Shown here: piece by piece, positions 7,625 to 15,612 of the stretch
Layout: every line of letters begins with the position of its first letter
How positions within the stretch are numbered: the first letter of the stretch is position 1
Assembly (NCBI RefSeq): GCF_030389965.1
Contig: NZ_CP128400.1
Span: forward strand, 1,426,001-1,490,000
Reading direction: 5' to 3'
DNA length: 64,000 bases
DNA from: Candidatus Chlorohelix allophototropha
GTDB lineage: Bacteria > Chloroflexota > Chloroflexia > Chloroheliales > Chloroheliaceae
Program-made: the position numbers and the translations under genes
The notes under the pieces: generated by a model
What the model saw: only the letters and a program-made list of their open reading frames with translations
Told to the model about the DNA's origin: nothing
The model's database searches: none

Positions 7625-8527
7625 GTGTTTGGAAAAGAAGAATTTTACCGGATAATCCTAGATAATCTGTTTGATGGTGTTTATCTGGTTGGAAAAGATA
7701 AAAGGATTACCTACTGGAATAAGGGGGCAACACGTATTACGGGTTACGATAGTGAAACCGTAATAGGTCGTAAATGTTCTGAGAACCTACTAATGCATGT
7801 AAGCGAGTCTGGGACTCTCCTTTGTATTACTGGATGTCCAATTTCTGAAACAATTACCGACGGTGCGGTTCGTGAAGCGGAAGTGTTTCTGCATCATAGT
7901 GATGGGCATCGTGTCCCTGTATTGGTTCGGGTAGCTCCATTAGTGGATGAGGAAGGTAATATTATTGGCGCGGTGGAAAGTTTCAGCGATAACTCTATCA
8001 CCATACAAGAACGCAAACGAGCCAATAATTTTCAAAAAGAGGCAATGGAAGATGCCCTCACCGGTATTGGCAATCGCCGTTTTATCGAGCATAAATTTCG
8101 CTTTTCTCTAGGCGAAGCCCAACAACTGGGTGATCAAATTGGTGTATTATTAATTGATATAGACTACTTTAAAAAGGTAAATGATAATTACGGGCATGAT
8201 ATTGGCGATCAAGTTTTAAAAATGGTTGCTAAAACAATTGCTAATAATGTTCGCGTAACAGACTTTGTTGGTCGTTGGGGCGGAGAAGAATTTGTTGTGG
8301 TATTACACAATATGGATCAAGAGCGACTAATAGCAATTAGCGAGAAAATCAGAGCGTTGGTGGGGAAAGCTCAATTGCATACTCTACACGGCGAGATTAA
8401 AGTTACTATTTCTATCGGCGCTGCTCTCAATAGCACCAATGATACGCCCGATAGTTTATTTGAGCGTATTGACAAATTGCTCTACCAGAGTAAGAGTGAG
8501 GGACGCAACCGGGTAAGTTACTCCTAG
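7625..8527 (+). CDS. PAS-GGDEF diguanylate cyclase
   Basis: 300 residues, cytoplasmic, starting at GTG 7625 after a GAAGGTGA ribosome-binding site. A PAS sensor domain (about 8-125) has FDGVYLVGKDKRITYWNKGA and a PAC-like end. It contains Cys residues (CSENLL, LLCITGCP) that could bind metal or sense redox; that is inference. The GGDEF domain (about 135-300) has the metal site IDIDYFKKVND, catalytic G219-G220-E221-E222-F223, and an intact inhibitory I-site RVTD (210-213). The enzyme should make c-di-GMP from two GTP and be product-inhibited. No c-di-GMP effector gene is recognised nearby. Confidence 0.92.
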   Translation: MFGKEEFYRIILDNLFDGVYLVGKDKRITYWNKGATRITGYDSETVIGRKCSENLLMHVSESGTLLCITGCPISETITDGAVREAEVFLHHSDGHRVPVLVRVAPLVDEEGNIIGAVESFSDNSITIQERKRANNFQKEAMEDALTGIGNRRFIEHKFRFSLGEAQQLGDQIGVLLIDIDYFKKVNDNYGHDIGDQVLKMVAKTIANNVRVTDFVGRWGGEEFVVVLHNMDQERLIAISEKIRALVGKAQLHTLHGEIKVTISIGAALNSTNDTPDSLFERIDKLLYQSKSEGRNRVSYS

Positions 8528-8600: not shown

Positions 8601-8689
8601 ACTACCATAATTTGAAATCGCATCGTTTAAATAGATTATACAAATAAAATTTAGTTGCAAATAAGCCCGTTAAAAATTCAGGGCTATTA

Positions 8690-8698
8690 TGTTATAAT
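8690..8698 (+). promoter_or_regulatory. Extended -10 promoter candidate for the FHA cluster
   Basis: TGTTATAAT is a perfect -10 hexamer with the extended TG. A weak -35 (TTAAAA) lies 17 bases upstream. Transcription would start near 8705, leaving a leader of about 110 bases before the TTG at 8815. Confidence 0.5.
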
Positions 8699-8814: not shown

Positions 8815-11800
8815 TTGGCGGAAGTAGCACCGCAAACCCCACATTTAAGAATCCTTAACGGTCCTCAGCAAGGTACTTGCATCCCGTTAGATTTTAATGC
8901 ATTAGCTATTACCCCCTTTGTTATCGGACGTGCCCCTGATTCGAATTTTTTATTGCAAGACCCCACTAACCGGGTATCTCGTCACCATTCAGAGTTTGCT
9001 TGGCGTAAAGAGGATGAAGTTTTAACCCTACGTGATACTTCCAGCAATGGCACTTATCTGAACGGGCAACAGATCGGCAGTCTTATGCCACTTTTCCCCG
9101 GCGATATAATCGGCTGTGGTAGTATCCAATTGCTTTTTTTTGTACCGGTGGATGGTATTAAAACCTTACTGGCTCAATTGCCTGATGAGAAACACATGCC
9201 TGAAGATACTTGGCCCGGTGTTGCTCGTCTCGATGTGCTGGTTAGTGATGCTCGCAACTTGAGGGTTGGTTCTTTTATTAGGTTAATTCCAACACATCCC
9301 CTCAGTATCGGGCGATTTGGCGATAATGATTTGCAATTGTTGGACGAAGATGTCAGTCGGAGCCATGCTGAGATTCGCTGGATTAGCAATGGCTACGTAT
9401 TGCGAGATTTGGGCGCTGCCAACCCTACTTATATCAATGATGTGGCGCTGGATGCCCCCCGTCGCTTGCAGGATGGTGATACCATCAATATACGTGGAAG
9501 TGAGTTTTCGTATCGTGCTTCGCGTGTACCCTACCAAGTATCTACCAAACTGGAGGCAGTGAAAATAACTTCGCAACGCCTTCGCTTTGCGCTTGATCAC
9601 AGCCAGTTACATCTTGGTGCGCGGTTTCTTGGTTTGCCTCGTGATCGTCAGGTTCAAATAGGACGTTCTGAAAGCAATGACTTGCGCCTTCTTGACCCCT
9701 ATGTTTCAAAACGCCACGCAATTTTGGTATATGAATCAGGGCGTTATGTGTTAACCGATCTCGGTACTTCCAACGGTGTGTTGGTAAACGGTCAGGATAT
9801 TAAACGTCCGATTGCCCTGAACGGTGGAGACCGTCTTAAAATAGGTCAGTTTGAGTTCATTTTCGAAGATTATGAACCCTCTCGCGAAGATGGTCAAACT
9901 GTGATGCTCAGAAGTGGGCAACCTGTTACCCTTGAAATGGCTGATTCAACCCAAACAATCGCAGATTCAGGTTCACCGGATGTTGCCGGAATGCAAGCGG
10001 TTAAGGAAGAAAAGAATCTGCATCCGCTTCGCAAGATTCCACCTTTCGATGAATTGGACGATGAACTATTTAAACAGCTTCAACCTTATTTCAAACAGGT
10101 TACTTACAATTCAGAACAGGAAATTGCGCGAGAAGGGCAGGGTAAAGGGGCATTTTTTGCCGTATTATCGGGATATATAACTATCTCGCGTGCTTTGAAT
10201 GAGCGGCGGGATGAACGATTGGTGCTGGCTGAAATCGGACCCGGTGCAATCTACGGTGAGCGTACAATTTTTGCCAACCAACCCTTTGTCAATCGTTTGG
10301 TGGCGCGTACTAGGGTGGAAGCGCTTCGATTGGAAGAGTCGGATTTTGTACGGACATTCAGCAATAATCCTAAAATCCTTTCTTTCTTTCAACAACAAGT
10401 TGCCACTTATTCGACTGCTACTTGGTTACGCGGCACTATTTTAATGCGCACTCTCTCGGACAGAACAATCCGCGACTTGGCTGCTCGTATGCGCTATCGT
10501 TCATTTAAACCGGGTGAACTCATCGGTGAAAAAGATAAACCATGCGATCAGTTCTTCCTGATTGTAGGGGGTGAGGCTACTGCTTTTACCGTAAATAGCA
10601 AAGGAACCGAACAGGTTATTGCCGAGCTTGAAGAAGGCGACACTTTTGGCGATGGGATTGCTAGCGAAGGTGAAACCTATCCGGTGACAGTGCGTGCTCG
10701 GAAACTGGTAGATGCTTACGCCCTTGCTAAAGCCGATTTTGAGACGGTATTGAGTCAGAGCGCCGATCCGGTAGCAAATCTTGGCGCCGAATTATTGGGC
10801 TTACCGCTAGGCGCGGTACTAAACCGCATCAGCCCTTTTACTACAATGCCCCCGCAATTAGTAGCTCAAATTGCCGCCCGTATGAAGGTTAAAAAGTTTC
10901 CCAAAGGGCGGGTTATTTTCAAAGAAGGGGAACGTGCAGACGCATTTTATATTATCCGCAAAGGACAAATTGAGCTTAGTTTCCAGACTCGTAGTGGTGA
11001 GAATCGCACCGATATGACAATCGGACCGGGTCAGTTTTTTGGCGAGACTGCCCTATCCGATAACCCAACCCGCACCAATACCTGTCATGCAGTTGAAGAA
11101 GTGCAGTTATTGACCTTGTACCGCCCCCAATTTGAAGAAGTGCTGAAATTAGGCGGAAATTACGCGCTTGGTCAGTATTTTGCCAAAGGTATCAGCAAAC
11201 GTTATCGCCCGAAGCGCGTAGCCGATTGGTCTATCACCGAACAAACCAATGCTATGGGTGAAACCCAGCATCTTTTGAGCAAGGGTGAGGATTATTTCAA
11301 GCTCTCAGAGGGCGGTTATTTCCTGTGGCAATTGATGGATGGTGATAATAGCATTAACGATTTGGCACTGTCCTATTTTATGGAATTTAAAAGTCTTGAC
11401 CTAGAGGGTGTATCCAACCTCGTGGGGCAGTTGCAAGCAGCAGGTTTTCTGGAAGTGCCTAAGGTGGATGAGCGCTTACTAGGGGAGAAGCAAGGTAAGG
11501 AACGAAGCATTATAGGAAAATTGTGGCAACCGATTTTCCGAACGTTGACTTATACCACAGAAATTAAAAATGTGGATGGCTTTTTCACAGGTTTGTACCG
11601 CTACTTTGGCAGGGTATTTTTCTGGAAACCGCTTGTATTTCTCTTCGCTCTCATTGTACTAGCCGGAACGGCTGCTTTTGTTTGGAAGGGTGGTCTTTCG
11701 GCACTGGTGCAACCGCCCATTGCTTTATTTGCCACCGGACTATGGTGGATACTTATTCTGGTCTTATTATTTAACTTCTTTATTCATGAAATTGCGCATG

Positions 11801-12504
11801 GTCTAGCCTGCAAACATTTTGGGCGGAAAGTAATGGGAGTAGGCGTAGGCTGGAATCTGGTAGGGCCTGTGTTTTTGGTCGATACAAACCAGATATGGTT
11901 GGAAAAACGCTGGCCCCGTATTGTCGTAAACTTGGCAGGTCCGTTAACCAATATTCTTTTCTGTAATATTTGTTTTCTGTGGCTATTTTTGGTGTCTGAA
12001 AGCGATACCCATACCCGGGATGCCCTATTTCAATTAGGCGTTATTGCCTTCACATTGGCATATATTAATCTCAATCCTTTGGTGGAAGGCGACGGTTATT
12101 ACGCTTTAATGGATTGGGTGGAAATTCCAAGCTTGCGCAAAAAAGCATTGGTACATGTTCGAAGGCGATTGACGCGCAAGCCTGATGTGAGGCATTATAC
12201 ACAGCGAGAGAAACGCATCTTTAATTGGTTTGTAGCGTTTATTCCCATCTATCTGCTGGTTATCATGGCTCAGTTTATTTTCTGGTTGGGCGGAATTACG
12301 ATAGCCTTGCTACATAATAGTTTGAATTTTGATAGCGATACTTCTCTGTGGTTAGGGGTGGGATTAGCAGTAATTGTAACATTGTTGATGGCGATTCCAA
12401 TGTTTGGCGAGCTTTTTGTAATCAGCGCTGCGGGTAGTGGTGATGATGAAGACGATACCGTTCGTACTGGAAGTGCCCGTGGAGGTCGTCGCCAAAACCG
12501 CTAG
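8815..12504 (+). CDS. FHA x3 - cNMP-binding x3 - PqqD-like - M50 membrane zinc peptidase fusion
   Basis: 1229 residues from a TTG start. Order of parts: three FHA domains (about 10-110, 140-235, 255-355; motifs IGRAPDSN/SRHHSEF/SSNGTYLNG, IGRFGDND/VSRSHAEI, IGRSESND/VSKRHAIL/TSNGVLVNG). Three cyclic-nucleotide-binding-type domains follow (about 410-525, 540-650, 665-780); only the third keeps a near-normal phosphate cassette (FFGETALSDNPTRT). Then a PqqD-like winged segment (about 815-880) and a multi-helix C-terminus carrying H991-E-I-A-H995 and N1087-P...D1093-G, the zinc-site motifs of site-2-protease-type M50 peptidases. FHA domains bind phosphothreonine. The protein probably couples cytoplasmic signals to intramembrane proteolysis or to peptide maturation or export; the substrate is unknown. 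It heads a run of three FHA genes. Confidence 0.85.
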   Translation: MAEVAPQTPHLRILNGPQQGTCIPLDFNALAITPFVIGRAPDSNFLLQDPTNRVSRHHSEFAWRKEDEVLTLRDTSSNGTYLNGQQIGSLMPLFPGDIIGCGSIQLLFFVPVDGIKTLLAQLPDEKHMPEDTWPGVARLDVLVSDARNLRVGSFIRLIPTHPLSIGRFGDNDLQLLDEDVSRSHAEIRWISNGYVLRDLGAANPTYINDVALDAPRRLQDGDTINIRGSEFSYRASRVPYQVSTKLEAVKITSQRLRFALDHSQLHLGARFLGLPRDRQVQIGRSESNDLRLLDPYVSKRHAILVYESGRYVLTDLGTSNGVLVNGQDIKRPIALNGGDRLKIGQFEFIFEDYEPSREDGQTVMLRSGQPVTLEMADSTQTIADSGSPDVAGMQAVKEEKNLHPLRKIPPFDELDDELFKQLQPYFKQVTYNSEQEIAREGQGKGAFFAVLSGYITISRALNERRDERLVLAEIGPGAIYGERTIFANQPFVNRLVARTRVEALRLEESDFVRTFSNNPKILSFFQQQVATYSTATWLRGTILMRTLSDRTIRDLAARMRYRSFKPGELIGEKDKPCDQFFLIVGGEATAFTVNSKGTEQVIAELEEGDTFGDGIASEGETYPVTVRARKLVDAYALAKADFETVLSQSADPVANLGAELLGLPLGAVLNRISPFTTMPPQLVAQIAARMKVKKFPKGRVIFKEGERADAFYIIRKGQIELSFQTRSGENRTDMTIGPGQFFGETALSDNPTRTNTCHAVEEVQLLTLYRPQFEEVLKLGGNYALGQYFAKGISKRYRPKRVADWSITEQTNAMGETQHLLSKGEDYFKLSEGGYFLWQLMDGDNSINDLALSYFMEFKSLDLEGVSNLVGQLQAAGFLEVPKVDERLLGEKQGKERSIIGKLWQPIFRTLTYTTEIKNVDGFFTGLYRYFGRVFFWKPLVFLFALIVLAGTAAFVWKGGLSALVQPPIALFATGLWWILILVLLFNFFIHEIAHGLACKHFGRKVMGVGVGWNLVGPVFLVDTNQIWLEKRWPRIVVNLAGPLTNILFCNICFLWLFLVSESDTHTRDALFQLGVIAFTLAYINLNPLVEGDGYYALMDWVEIPSLRKKALVHVRRRLTRKPDVRHYTQREKRIFNWFVAFIPIYLLVIMAQFIFWLGGITIALLHNSLNFDSDTSLWLGVGLAVIVTLLMAIPMFGELFVISAAGSGDDEDDTVRTGSARGGRRQNR

Positions 12505-12524
12505 GGTAAAGGGGTGTAGGTTAA

Positions 12525-14243
12525 TTGAGTCAGCCTGTAGTCGTTAACCGTGAAGGTCCTCAGTTAAAAATGAATTTTGTTACCGGACCACGCACCGGAG
12601 AACGCTTGAGTCTGCCTTATCCTGAGCAAGGCATTTCCACAATATTACTAGGACGCAGCCGCGAATGTCCTATCTGGATAGATAGCGCCGATGTAAGCCG
12701 CCGTCACGCCGAGATTTTTGCAGGTCAACATGGTCAGTTATTGATTCATGATTTGGGTAGCATCAATGGTACTTTGGTTAACGGTCAAATTGCCCAACTA
12801 ACCGCCCCATTACCTTTGCATCCCGGCGATCATATTAAGCTAGGCTTGACTGAAATACTCTTTGAAGGCGTTACAGGCGTACCAGCACCACGTCCTAATC
12901 CCACTCCAATCGTAACTACCCGCCCAACCGCCTCTCTTTCTGACGACATCTTTATTTACATCTTTTTGAGAAATGGTCAGCGTTACCTGTTTTCCGGCGA
13001 AGAAGCTACTATTGGGCGTGGACAAGCCAATGATATAGTAATTGATAGCAATAGTATGTCACGCCAGCATGCCCGCCTCGCCCGCACCCCAAACGGCGTA
13101 TATATCAGCGATCTTGGTAGCACCAATAAAACCTTTGTAAACGGTGTGCAAGCGGATGCGCCGATCATGCTACATGATGGCGATATCCTGCGGTTTGGCG
13201 ATGTTGAAGCAGATTTTAAAATAGAGAACCAGCGACTAAGTGCCGTTTTCAGAGCAGATGACCTTAACATCCCTGAACTTGAGGATGGTACCAAATTTGA
13301 TAAAACTTTCCTAGGTGACATGACGTTTCGGGAAATTACCCAAAATAGCCCGGATGATATACGGCGCTCTATTGAAGAGGGCGAAACAAATCTAGCGGTG
13401 AATTTGATTGTTGTTGGGCGAAACCAGCGGCAATCTAGCGCGGCGTTACCAGAAGGCACGGCTCTTTATCGCCCTGAAATAGCACGCCCTGCTGTACCAC
13501 AAGCGCGGCTTGGGGCAGAGGTAGCGCGTTTGGAAGGGGTGTGGTACAACGAAGGCAGTGGGCGCGCCTCCACCCTTTTACTCAAAGACGTGAGAATTGG
13601 TTTGCGTCAAGGTGAATTGGTAGCATTAGTTGGTCCTTCCGGCTCAGGTAAAAGTGAATTAGTTGAAATTATGGGCGGTTTTCTAGCTGCTGATCGTGGT
13701 ACGGTATCAATTCTTGGTTATCAAATACCAACCCACGAAAGCTGGCGCGGTAAAAAACGCTTAAATCTTGAAGAAGAGCGCGACCATGTACGTTGGCGAA
13801 GTCGCAATATTGGCTATATGAACAGTGATTTGAACCAGCTAAATCCTCGCCTGACTATTTTGGAGCAAATCACCACCGCGATTGAATTAGCAGGTACGGT
13901 GGTTGACCCTCGCCGCCGCAACGAGATCGCAATGGAGCGTCTGTTTCTAGTCGGTCTTACCGACCCTGAAATCCCACGTCTTAAGCCCTCTGATCTTAAT
14001 CGTCGTGAAAAGCAACTCGTGGCACTTGCACGGGCGCTTGCAAATGACCCACCCATTTTATTAGGCGATGAACCAATTGGTAATCTGCCAAGTGATGCCG
14101 CTAATTATGTTTTTAAATTGCTACAACAGTTTGTAGCTTCGGGGAAAACAGTGTTAATGGTAACCCATGATGCTTATTGGGCACGCAATGCCACCCGCCA
14201 AATTGAAATACTCGACGGTGAGATTGTTGGCAGTCTTTCCTGA
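12525..14243 (+). CDS. FHA x2 - ABC ATPase fusion with degenerate signature and Q-loop
   Basis: 572 residues from TTG 12525, 20 bases after the previous stop. Two FHA domains occupy about 15-110 (LGRSRECP, SRRHAEIF, GSINGTLVNG) and 145-235 (IGRGQAND, SRQHARL, GSTNKTFVNG). A LolD/MacB-like ATPase domain covers about 335-570. Walker A is G370-PSGSGKS, Walker B ends ILLGDEP (D515, E516), and the H-loop MVTHD is kept. The signature LSGGQ is replaced by L491-N-R-R-E, the Q-loop glutamine region reads YMNSDLNQLNP, and the D-loop has NLPS. No permease domain or permease gene follows. It may bind ATP without driving normal transport, acting as a regulatory partner of the peptidase upstream; this is inference. 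Confidence 0.82.
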   Translation: MSQPVVVNREGPQLKMNFVTGPRTGERLSLPYPEQGISTILLGRSRECPIWIDSADVSRRHAEIFAGQHGQLLIHDLGSINGTLVNGQIAQLTAPLPLHPGDHIKLGLTEILFEGVTGVPAPRPNPTPIVTTRPTASLSDDIFIYIFLRNGQRYLFSGEEATIGRGQANDIVIDSNSMSRQHARLARTPNGVYISDLGSTNKTFVNGVQADAPIMLHDGDILRFGDVEADFKIENQRLSAVFRADDLNIPELEDGTKFDKTFLGDMTFREITQNSPDDIRRSIEEGETNLAVNLIVVGRNQRQSSAALPEGTALYRPEIARPAVPQARLGAEVARLEGVWYNEGSGRASTLLLKDVRIGLRQGELVALVGPSGSGKSELVEIMGGFLAADRGTVSILGYQIPTHESWRGKKRLNLEEERDHVRWRSRNIGYMNSDLNQLNPRLTILEQITTAIELAGTVVDPRRRNEIAMERLFLVGLTDPEIPRLKPSDLNRREKQLVALARALANDPPILLGDEPIGNLPSDAANYVFKLLQQFVASGKTVLMVTHDAYWARNATRQIEILDGEIVGSLS

Positions 14244-14371
14244 AACCCTGACGAAATTGTTATAAAAACCTAGAACCTCATAGCAGCCTTATCCGTTTAA
14301 AATATTACGGGGACACTTTTTGTTACTACAAATAACAGTAAAAAAGGGCTAGTTTTCTAGACCGGAGTACA

Positions 14372-14380
14372 TGCTATAAT
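14372..14380 (+). promoter_or_regulatory. Extended -10 element before the third FHA gene
   Basis: TGCTATAAT is an extended -10 with a perfect hexamer at 14375-14380. It puts the transcription start near 14387, close to the likely ATG (14398). This argues against the in-frame TTG at 14380, which overlaps the hexamer, as the start codon. Confidence 0.5.
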
Positions 14381-14397
14381 TGTTATTGAGAAATTTT

Positions 14398-15612
14398 ATG
14401 ACAATACCAGCTCTAGTTGATATGAAGTTAAAAATTTTAGAAGAACCTCATATGTTACCGGGCGCTCCCCAACCGGATGTCTTTGATTTGTGGCATAATC
14501 CTGCCCGTTCCAAACTCAAATTAGGCAGAAAAGTTGGAAACGATATAGTGCTGGTTGATAGTAGTGTGTCGCGCTTTCATCTCGAACTAGAGATAAGAGA
14601 AGACGGGCTGCTTGTTTGCGATATGAACAGCCAGAACGGCACTACCTTAAACGGGCGATCTCTTGCTCCCATGCAATCGGTGCTGGTTCGTCCCGGAGAT
14701 AAACTTCGAGTGGGAGATGTTTTGTTATTACTCGAAGCCACCTATGAAAACTCACCTTCAAATAAGGAATTTGATAATTTAATTTCCCAAACCTCTCAAG
14801 GGAAATTTGTTAACCTTACTACATCTGAAAATAATCCATTTGTGGAAGCTTCCGCTGATTCCGGGCAATTATCTTTTGTAGCGCAGCAGCAAGGTGTATT
14901 CGATTATTTCGGCGAACAAGCGAAACCTTCCACTGTTCGAGACCACTCCGAACTATTCCCACCGGATGCAGTGTTGCCACGTAATCAGTTTGGCTACAAG
15001 CGAGCTAAACCACGCGCCTGGCTATTTATGCTATTGGCATTGTTAATTACGGTAATTATCGGAGCTATTGTATACGTACTGGCTTTTGTAATGAACTCAG
15101 GTACTGGTTCTACGCTGGCGAATTTACCTTCTCATGTTTTTTCAAGCCCTGCAAACTCAGATTCAGCTCTCGGTGTAATTGTGGCACATCCTAGCACATG
15201 GATAAGGCAGGATGTAGATCCTTCCCGTGTAATTTTTACTAAACCCGATAGCTCTACAGCCGCTTTAACCATTGAAAAGCCACCTAGTCGTACTATACCA
15301 AATGCTAATATTAATCCTGACGAAGCAATTAAACTTTACATAACTAACATAAAAACTAAAGCTAAAAACCCTAAAATATTGTTGGATACTATAGAAACTA
15401 AACTGTTGGACAATACCCCTGCATGGATAGCAAAAGCGGTCTTCAGCACAGTTGAAGATAATGTTAGTGTGCAAGATTACACGGTTACGGTGTTAAGTTT
15501 CCAATGCAATGGTAACCTTTACTTTGCCAGCGTGGGCGAAGAAGCCCGTTTTTATAACGGGGTAGCACAACAGGATTTGGAAGCATCAATCTCCAGTATC
15601 ACCTGCCGTTAA
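14398..15612 (+). CDS. FHA - transmembrane - extracellular domain protein
   Basis: 404 residues from ATG 14398. A further in-frame ATG at 14422 is also possible, and an upstream TTG (14380) overlaps a -10 box. An FHA domain spans about 10-110 (KLGRKVGNDIVL, SRFHLELEI, NSQNGTTLNGRSL), followed by a low-complexity stretch. One membrane helix lies at about 206-232 (WLFMLLALLITVIIGAIVYV). About 170 residues follow, predicted outside the cell, resembling small PsbP/LpqN-like folds by size and pattern (GVIVAHPSTWIRQDVDPSRV); this resemblance is weak. It completes the three-gene FHA group and could carry a phosphothreonine-dependent signal across the membrane. Function unknown. Confidence 0.75.
   Translation: MTIPALVDMKLKILEEPHMLPGAPQPDVFDLWHNPARSKLKLGRKVGNDIVLVDSSVSRFHLELEIREDGLLVCDMNSQNGTTLNGRSLAPMQSVLVRPGDKLRVGDVLLLLEATYENSPSNKEFDNLISQTSQGKFVNLTTSENNPFVEASADSGQLSFVAQQQGVFDYFGEQAKPSTVRDHSELFPPDAVLPRNQFGYKRAKPRAWLFMLLALLITVIIGAIVYVLAFVMNSGTGSTLANLPSHVFSSPANSDSALGVIVAHPSTWIRQDVDPSRVIFTKPDSSTAALTIEKPPSRTIPNANINPDEAIKLYITNIKTKAKNPKILLDTIETKLLDNTPAWIAKAVFSTVEDNVSVQDYTVTVLSFQCNGNLYFASVGEEARFYNGVAQQDLEASISSITCR

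Follow-up and report, generated by a model that had tools for sequence, protein, structure and literature searches.

What is done by a locus in which phosphopeptide- and nucleotide-sensing-type domains are encoded together with an intramembrane peptidase and an ABC-type ATPase? The question is raised by three consecutive genes on the forward strand of a 64,000-nt stretch of DNA (G000:C2:1426001-1490000; hereafter the window, to which the positions of genes 1 to 3 refer), taken from the genome (6.09 Mb in five contigs) of 'Candidatus Chlorohelix allophototropha', a lake phototroph with an unusual reaction centre, in which signalling is, to our knowledge, unstudied. The published genome of strain L227-S17 comprises chromosomes of 2.96 and 2.45 Mb plus a 375-kb chromid (PMC10972752). 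A preliminary description of the locus had listed three same-strand open reading frames (ORFs) with six FHA domains in total (3+2+1), three cNMP-type domains and an M50 peptidase in gene 1, an ABC ATPase in gene 2 and, as the product of gene 3, a membrane-spanning FHA protein with an extracellular part, and had read the three genes as one phospho-signal-controlled system for proteolysis or peptide processing. This gene and domain content was recovered from the ORF list, Pfam searches and hydrophobicity. The unit, as reported here, is smaller: genes 1 and 2 form a conserved pair, which is tentatively interpreted as an RRE-M50 intramembrane peptidase gated by FHA and cNMP-type domains, with an FHA-bearing pseudo-ABC protein as its regulator, whereas gene 3 stands apart.

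Homologues of gene 2 were sought in 158 genomes of the class, and the neighbourhoods of the matches were compared. Five genomes carried one, all from a single family and spanning three genera (family membership was taken from genome labels, and unmatched genomes could include more of the family). In each of the five, gene 1 was found directly upstream of gene 2, with a gap of 20 bp in the window and 16 bp in G086 and with a 4-bp overlap in G083, G084 and G085; protein identity to the window orthologues was about 50% for gene 1 and 52-56% for gene 2. The outer neighbours differed by genus (PAS-GGDEF upstream in the window, an HD-domain protein in G083 and G084 with a homologue in G085, and a melibiase-like gene in G086), and besides gene 2 no gene was common to the five neighbourhoods. 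Because adjacency persists in all five genomes despite differing flanks, genes 1 and 2 are a two-gene module that was retained while its surroundings changed. The module is lineage-restricted; outside the family, no gene 2 homologue was detected in 400 Chloroflexota genomes, a soft negative, as scoring was limited to three candidates in each genome.

Gene 3 (14422..15612, + strand; 396 aa) lies outside this module. It encodes one FHA domain (Pfam FHA 4.2e-15), one hydrophobic membrane span and a C-terminal domain, and its start is probably ATG 14422 rather than TTG 14380, since its orthologues begin at or beside the position equivalent to the former. Orthologues are present in all four other family genomes (G083, G084, G085 and G086) and are unlinked to genes 1 and 2 in every one, being separated from the pair by approximately 520 kb of the same contig in G083. 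A gene for a polytopic membrane protein of 587-588 aa follows the gene 3 orthologue by 9-12 bp in G083 and G084 (L103:7321-10521 and L104:9302-12493), which suggests that this protein is the true partner of gene 3. The proposal that all three genes act as one system draws on their shared strand and close spacing in the window genome; it is largely refuted by gene neighbourhood, the very comparison that the preliminary description had named as its check and that the pair alone withstands, and it is almost certainly wrong. The trio was therefore rejected as a unit.

Gene 1 (8815..12504, + strand; 1229 aa, with a TTG start and AGAGG upstream) was annotated from Pfam and NCBIfam matches, alignment and a motif table. 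Three FHA domains (residues ~10-110, ~140-235 and ~270-350; Pfam 1.6e-53) are followed by three cNMP-type domains (residues ~405-530, ~545-665 and ~675-790; Pfam cNMP_binding 6.7e-51), by a PqqD/RRE-like domain that had been overlooked previously (residues ~801-882; 11215..11460) and, directly after it, by a polytopic M50 peptidase core (residues ~920-1205; Pfam Peptidase_M50, 2e-7, 31.1 bits against a cut-off of 27.2). Alignment placed the zinc motif HEIAH at residues 991-995 (11785..11799) and a second motif, NPLVEGDG, with the catalytic-type Asp1093, at residues 1087-1094 (12073..12096). The motif residues H, E, H and Asp are invariant in five orthologues and 20 further Chloroflexota homologues, and NPxxExDG is conserved. 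Judged by these motifs, gene 1 is a predicted M50 peptidase of the site-2 protease (S2P) type, having both an HExxH in a membrane segment and a downstream motif to supply the Asp zinc ligand.

The PqqD-like domain scored 22.6 bits, just below the Pfam cut-off of 23.4, and was further assigned by fold comparison and by co-linearity with an NCBIfam profile. Residues 801-1229 were modelled with AlphaFold2 (mean predicted local distance difference test score, pLDDT, 73), and in a Foldseek comparison the model matched SpoIVFB with pro-sigmaK in its membrane half (probability 0.99) and the RRE of TbiB1, as the TbiB1-leader complex 5v1u, in its N-terminal part (probability 1.00); for the M50 half, mjS2P was another of the nearest solved structures. 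As the E-values of the two matches were weak (0.02 and 0.28), they are supportive only. The same folds would suit a classical S2P, gene 1 alone freeing a transcription factor or an anti-sigma factor and gene 2 being an unrelated co-transcribed FHA adaptor, and soluble domains do occur on S2Ps, as with the CBS domain of SpoIVFB, the exact role of which is unsettled (PMC11486902). Like SpoIVFB and mjS2P (M50B), gene 1 joins an HExxH...NPxxxxDG membrane metallopeptidase to a soluble domain of the ligand type, but in place of CBS it carries FHA and cNMP domains, and these are N-terminal rather than C-terminal. Its RRE domain is moreover atypical of classical S2Ps, gene 2 is the only gene common to the five neighbourhoods, and the conserved pairing together with the shared FHA domains points to a functional linkage of genes 1 and 2, so that an independent S2P is considered very unlikely.

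The RRE/PqqD domain links gene 1 instead to peptide-maturation peptidases. The whole PqqD-M50 half is co-linear with the daptide metalloprotease profile NF041824 (residues 819-1156 against profile positions 19-334; 113.5 bits), which was its best match among NCBIfam families for ribosomally synthesized and post-translationally modified peptides (RiPPs), followed by LiaK/YydH; a relative in G223 reached 150 bits. As in daptide MpaP (NF041824) and epipeptide EpeP/YydH/LiaK (NF058609), the RRE/PqqD-like domain immediately precedes a polytopic M50 core, as indicated by the near-cut-off PqqD match and by Foldseek. Daptide clusters were discovered through their RRE-S2P fusion (PMC10036551), and RiPPs are processed by the M50 enzymes EpeP, TglG and TmoG (PMC10885120). 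Gene 1 might accordingly be imagined as the leader peptidase of a daptide- or epipeptide-like RiPP pathway, with export by an NHLP-type exporter elsewhere and shared FHA domains coordinating the two. An NHLP bacteriocin export operon is indeed present, at G000:C2:225793-232938 (L027:3793-10938; - strand), in which the second ABC subunit (1395 aa; TIGR03797, 927 bits) is fused to three FHA domains. Over 430 aa, the N-terminus of this subunit and the triple-FHA N-terminus of gene 1 show 38% identity; a fusion of similar length is seen in G083 and G084 (1426-1427 aa). Proteins of TIGR03794/03796/03797 occur near 226-233 kb of that contig and not in the gene 1-2 locus.

This pathway is nevertheless opposed by several results. 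The daptide score is far under its cut-off (113 against 300), no precursor and no enzymes of the MpaB/C/D/M type were found among the adjacent proteins scanned, the NHLP-leader-like match in the genome is weak (22 bits against a cut-off of 50.9), and G086 carries the gene 1-gene 2 pair with no NHLP exporter over cut-off. Gene 1 differs from the daptide and epipeptide proteases further in its three FHA and three cNMP domains and its FHA pseudo-ABC partner. A daptide or NHLP cluster at this locus was rejected on the sub-threshold score and the missing co-genes, and the broader RiPP reading is judged unlikely, though credible enough to be kept in view. What the resemblance to the NHLP subunit may reflect is a shared FHA input module serving two peptide-handling membrane machines. 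A gene with an adenylate/guanylate cyclase domain is located ~3.5 kb from the weak NHLP-leader-like ORF (77 aa; C1:2913255, in L106, G000:C1:2904000-2923000).

Gene 2 (12525..14243, + strand; 572 aa, no transmembrane span) was characterized by Pfam, alignment and a motif table. Two FHA domains (residues ~20-118 and ~142-235; Pfam 6.5e-41) and a variable linker precede a degenerate ABC ATPase (residues ~333-572; Pfam ABC_tran 2.5e-21), the nucleotide-binding domain (NBD) of which is nearest the DevA/LolD/FtsE/MacB families. Walker A is intact (GPSGSGK, residues 370-376; 13632..13652) and, like the Walker B motif DEP with its catalytic Glu, is kept in all five orthologues. The Q-loop Gln is lost in all five, as is the LSGGQ signature, replaced by LNR[RT]E (in the window within PSDLNRREKQ, residues 488-497; 13986..14015, from the motif table and a PDB alignment); the switch His is kept in the window only, being Gln in G086 and Ser in the other three. 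The Q-loop Gln serves permease coupling and the signature motif the closing of the ATP sandwich dimer. With both motifs lost and none of the five genomes having a permease next to the pair, gene 2 is more readily understood as an ATP-binding scaffold than as a pump, and the earlier view of the ATPase as atypical is borne out. Decay into a pseudogene was ruled out: the ratio of nonsynonymous to synonymous substitution rates of the NBD is ~0.1-0.15 among the three genomes of genus g2, equal to that of gene 1, and this purifying selection shows gene 2 to be functional in some way.

Gene 2 could still power a MacB/LolCDE-type exporter whose permease is encoded elsewhere, gene 1 being a regulatory or processing subunit. 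The family affinities of the NBD agree with this, MacB-type permeases are encoded elsewhere in all five genomes, and in a different Chloroflexota family (G223; C257, L030:7323-12076) a gene for an FHA x2-cNMP x3-PqqD-M50 protein has a 4-bp overlap with a MacB_PCD-FtsX permease gene, an arrangement suggestive of an ancestral connection with transport. The loss of the coupling and closure motifs in every orthologue and of the switch His in four of five, together with the missing neighbouring permease, disfavours an ordinary ABC exporter, and this alternative appears decidedly unlikely. A precedent for the control of an ABC protein by FHA domains is Rv1747, for which phosphothreonine control has been shown (PMC5549992); as in Rv1747 and other FHA-ABC2 exporters, tandem FHA domains are fused to an ABC ATPase. 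Rv1747-type proteins, however, contain an ABC2/ABCG permease domain in the same polypeptide, whereas gene 2 is of the MacB/LolD class, has no membrane part and carries decayed motifs. Two more FHA-ABC(ATPase)-ABC2 fusions resembling Rv1747 are encoded in the genome (L028:13068-15800, - strand, and L029:6524-9172, + strand), each with Ser/Thr kinase genes within a few kb.

Relatives of gene 1 were sought in public genome contigs and in the phylum. Single-sequence searches returned few, and a wider family was revealed by a PqqD-M50 profile: of 400 Chloroflexota genomes, 66 contained a homologue. The carriers of the PqqD-M50-cNMP combination include G007 and lineages that we take to resemble Chloroflexus and Roseiflexus. 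Among 20 homologues examined, 19 matched Pfam M50, 16 also cNMP and one FHA. The cNMP domains are mostly C-terminal to the M50 core and are N-terminal in the window's family, G223 and G433, so the M50-cNMP combination exists in both orders. Gene 1 has the homologous core, cNMP domains and catalytic residues in common with these proteins, which mostly differ from it in domain order, have no FHA domain (with one exception) and lack a gene 2 partner. Outside one genus, no neighbour recurred immediately beside the peptidase across the PqqD-M50 loci except gene 2 in the window's family. In G198 (C20, L068:9190-12605) an FHA-PqqD-M50 gene, the PqqD domain of which passes the Pfam cut-off, overlaps a protein-kinase-like ORF. 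In the library that was searched, no paper contains the terms M50, PqqD and cyclic-nucleotide-binding together, and other combinations returned nothing relevant.

These observations are best accommodated, at somewhat less than an even chance, by a phospho- and nucleotide-controlled peptidase complex whose kinase and cyclase act in trans. The FHA and cNMP-type domains of the cytosolic N-terminus of gene 1 would read phosphothreonine and bind a nucleotide ligand, respectively, and would gate the M50 protease. Gene 2, soluble and with a decayed DevA/LolD/MacB-class ATPase that probably still binds ATP and would be unable to cycle as a transporter motor, would bind gene 1 and regulate or scaffold it in a phospho-dependent manner. 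The complex would be switched by a Ser/Thr kinase and a nucleotide signal produced by genes in other parts of the genome, and the RRE would capture a substrate peptide and bring it to the M50 site, where it may be cut in the membrane. A more specific version, in which an ABC ATPase has been repurposed as an FHA phospho-dependent nucleotide switch that gates an RRE-guided intramembrane peptidase and not a permease, is possible but doubtful. The phospho-controlled proteolysis or peptide processing of the preliminary description survives in the favoured reading, with a nucleotide signal added and with two genes in place of three.

The favoured reading agrees with the recurrent M50-cNMP association, with the FHA-PqqD-M50 gene beside a kinase-like ORF in G198 and with the supply of signals in trans: the genome holds 37 protein kinases above cut-off, cyclase-domain matches at 4 loci and 32 FHA matches. 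In a genome this rich in such domains single domains are weakly informative, and it is the conserved combination that counts. None of the 37 kinases falls within the window, no multi-span permease gene adjoins the three-gene locus, and kinase and span scans upheld the earlier statement that neither a Ser/Thr kinase nor an export permease is in the locus. The FHA binding residues GR, SxxH and N(G) are kept in five of the six FHA domains of the window; the His of the first FHA domain of gene 2 is lost in genus g2.

Several points weigh against this reading, to which the permease neighbour in G223 must be added. In gene 1 the NG motif is missing from the second FHA domain, and in the window the Glu and Arg of the cNMP cassette GE...R are kept in domains 1 and 3 and absent from domain 2, so that some of the apparent sensors may be structural. 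No convincing conserved precursor-like small ORF was found upstream of gene 1. The AlphaFold2 model of the FHA2-ABC part of gene 2, built from 5 sequences, was too poor (pLDDT 52) and was left out of the fold search. Of the cyclic-nucleotide sensing proposed earlier, the domains are confirmed and a cyclic-nucleotide ligand is unproven, given the domain without the Glu/Arg pair and the example of HetC, in which a cNMP domain controls a peptide-processing exporter and the ligand is ppGpp, not cAMP (PMC10986499). The NHLP/NHLM exporter and HetC resemble gene 1 as peptide-processing membrane machines with FHA (in this genome's NHLP subunit) or cNMP (in HetC) control domains, but use a C39 cysteine peptidase and complete permease-ATPases, not M50.

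In the immediate surroundings, a PAS-GGDEF diguanylate cyclase gene (window 7625-8527, same strand) ends 287 bp upstream of gene 1; it is not kept beside the pair in the relatives. A promoter-like TTAAAA-17-TATAAT with a TG element lies upstream of gene 1 (8670..8698, + strand) as a consensus match only, such patterns numbering 19 in the scanned region against 13.4 expected.

For intramembrane M50 peptidases, control by PDZ or CBS domains and by partner proteins is known. The gene 1-gene 2 pair seems to represent a novel mode of control for such a peptidase and a variant among RRE/M50 systems; if the reading is true, a stack of FHA and cNMP domains, partnered by an ABC-derived pseudo-ATPase, would add a new input layer to M50 control, by which Ser/Thr kinase and nucleotide signalling would be tied to membrane proteolysis. 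The pair would also provide a handle on the broad set of Chloroflexota PqqD-M50-cNMP proteins, for which no description was found.

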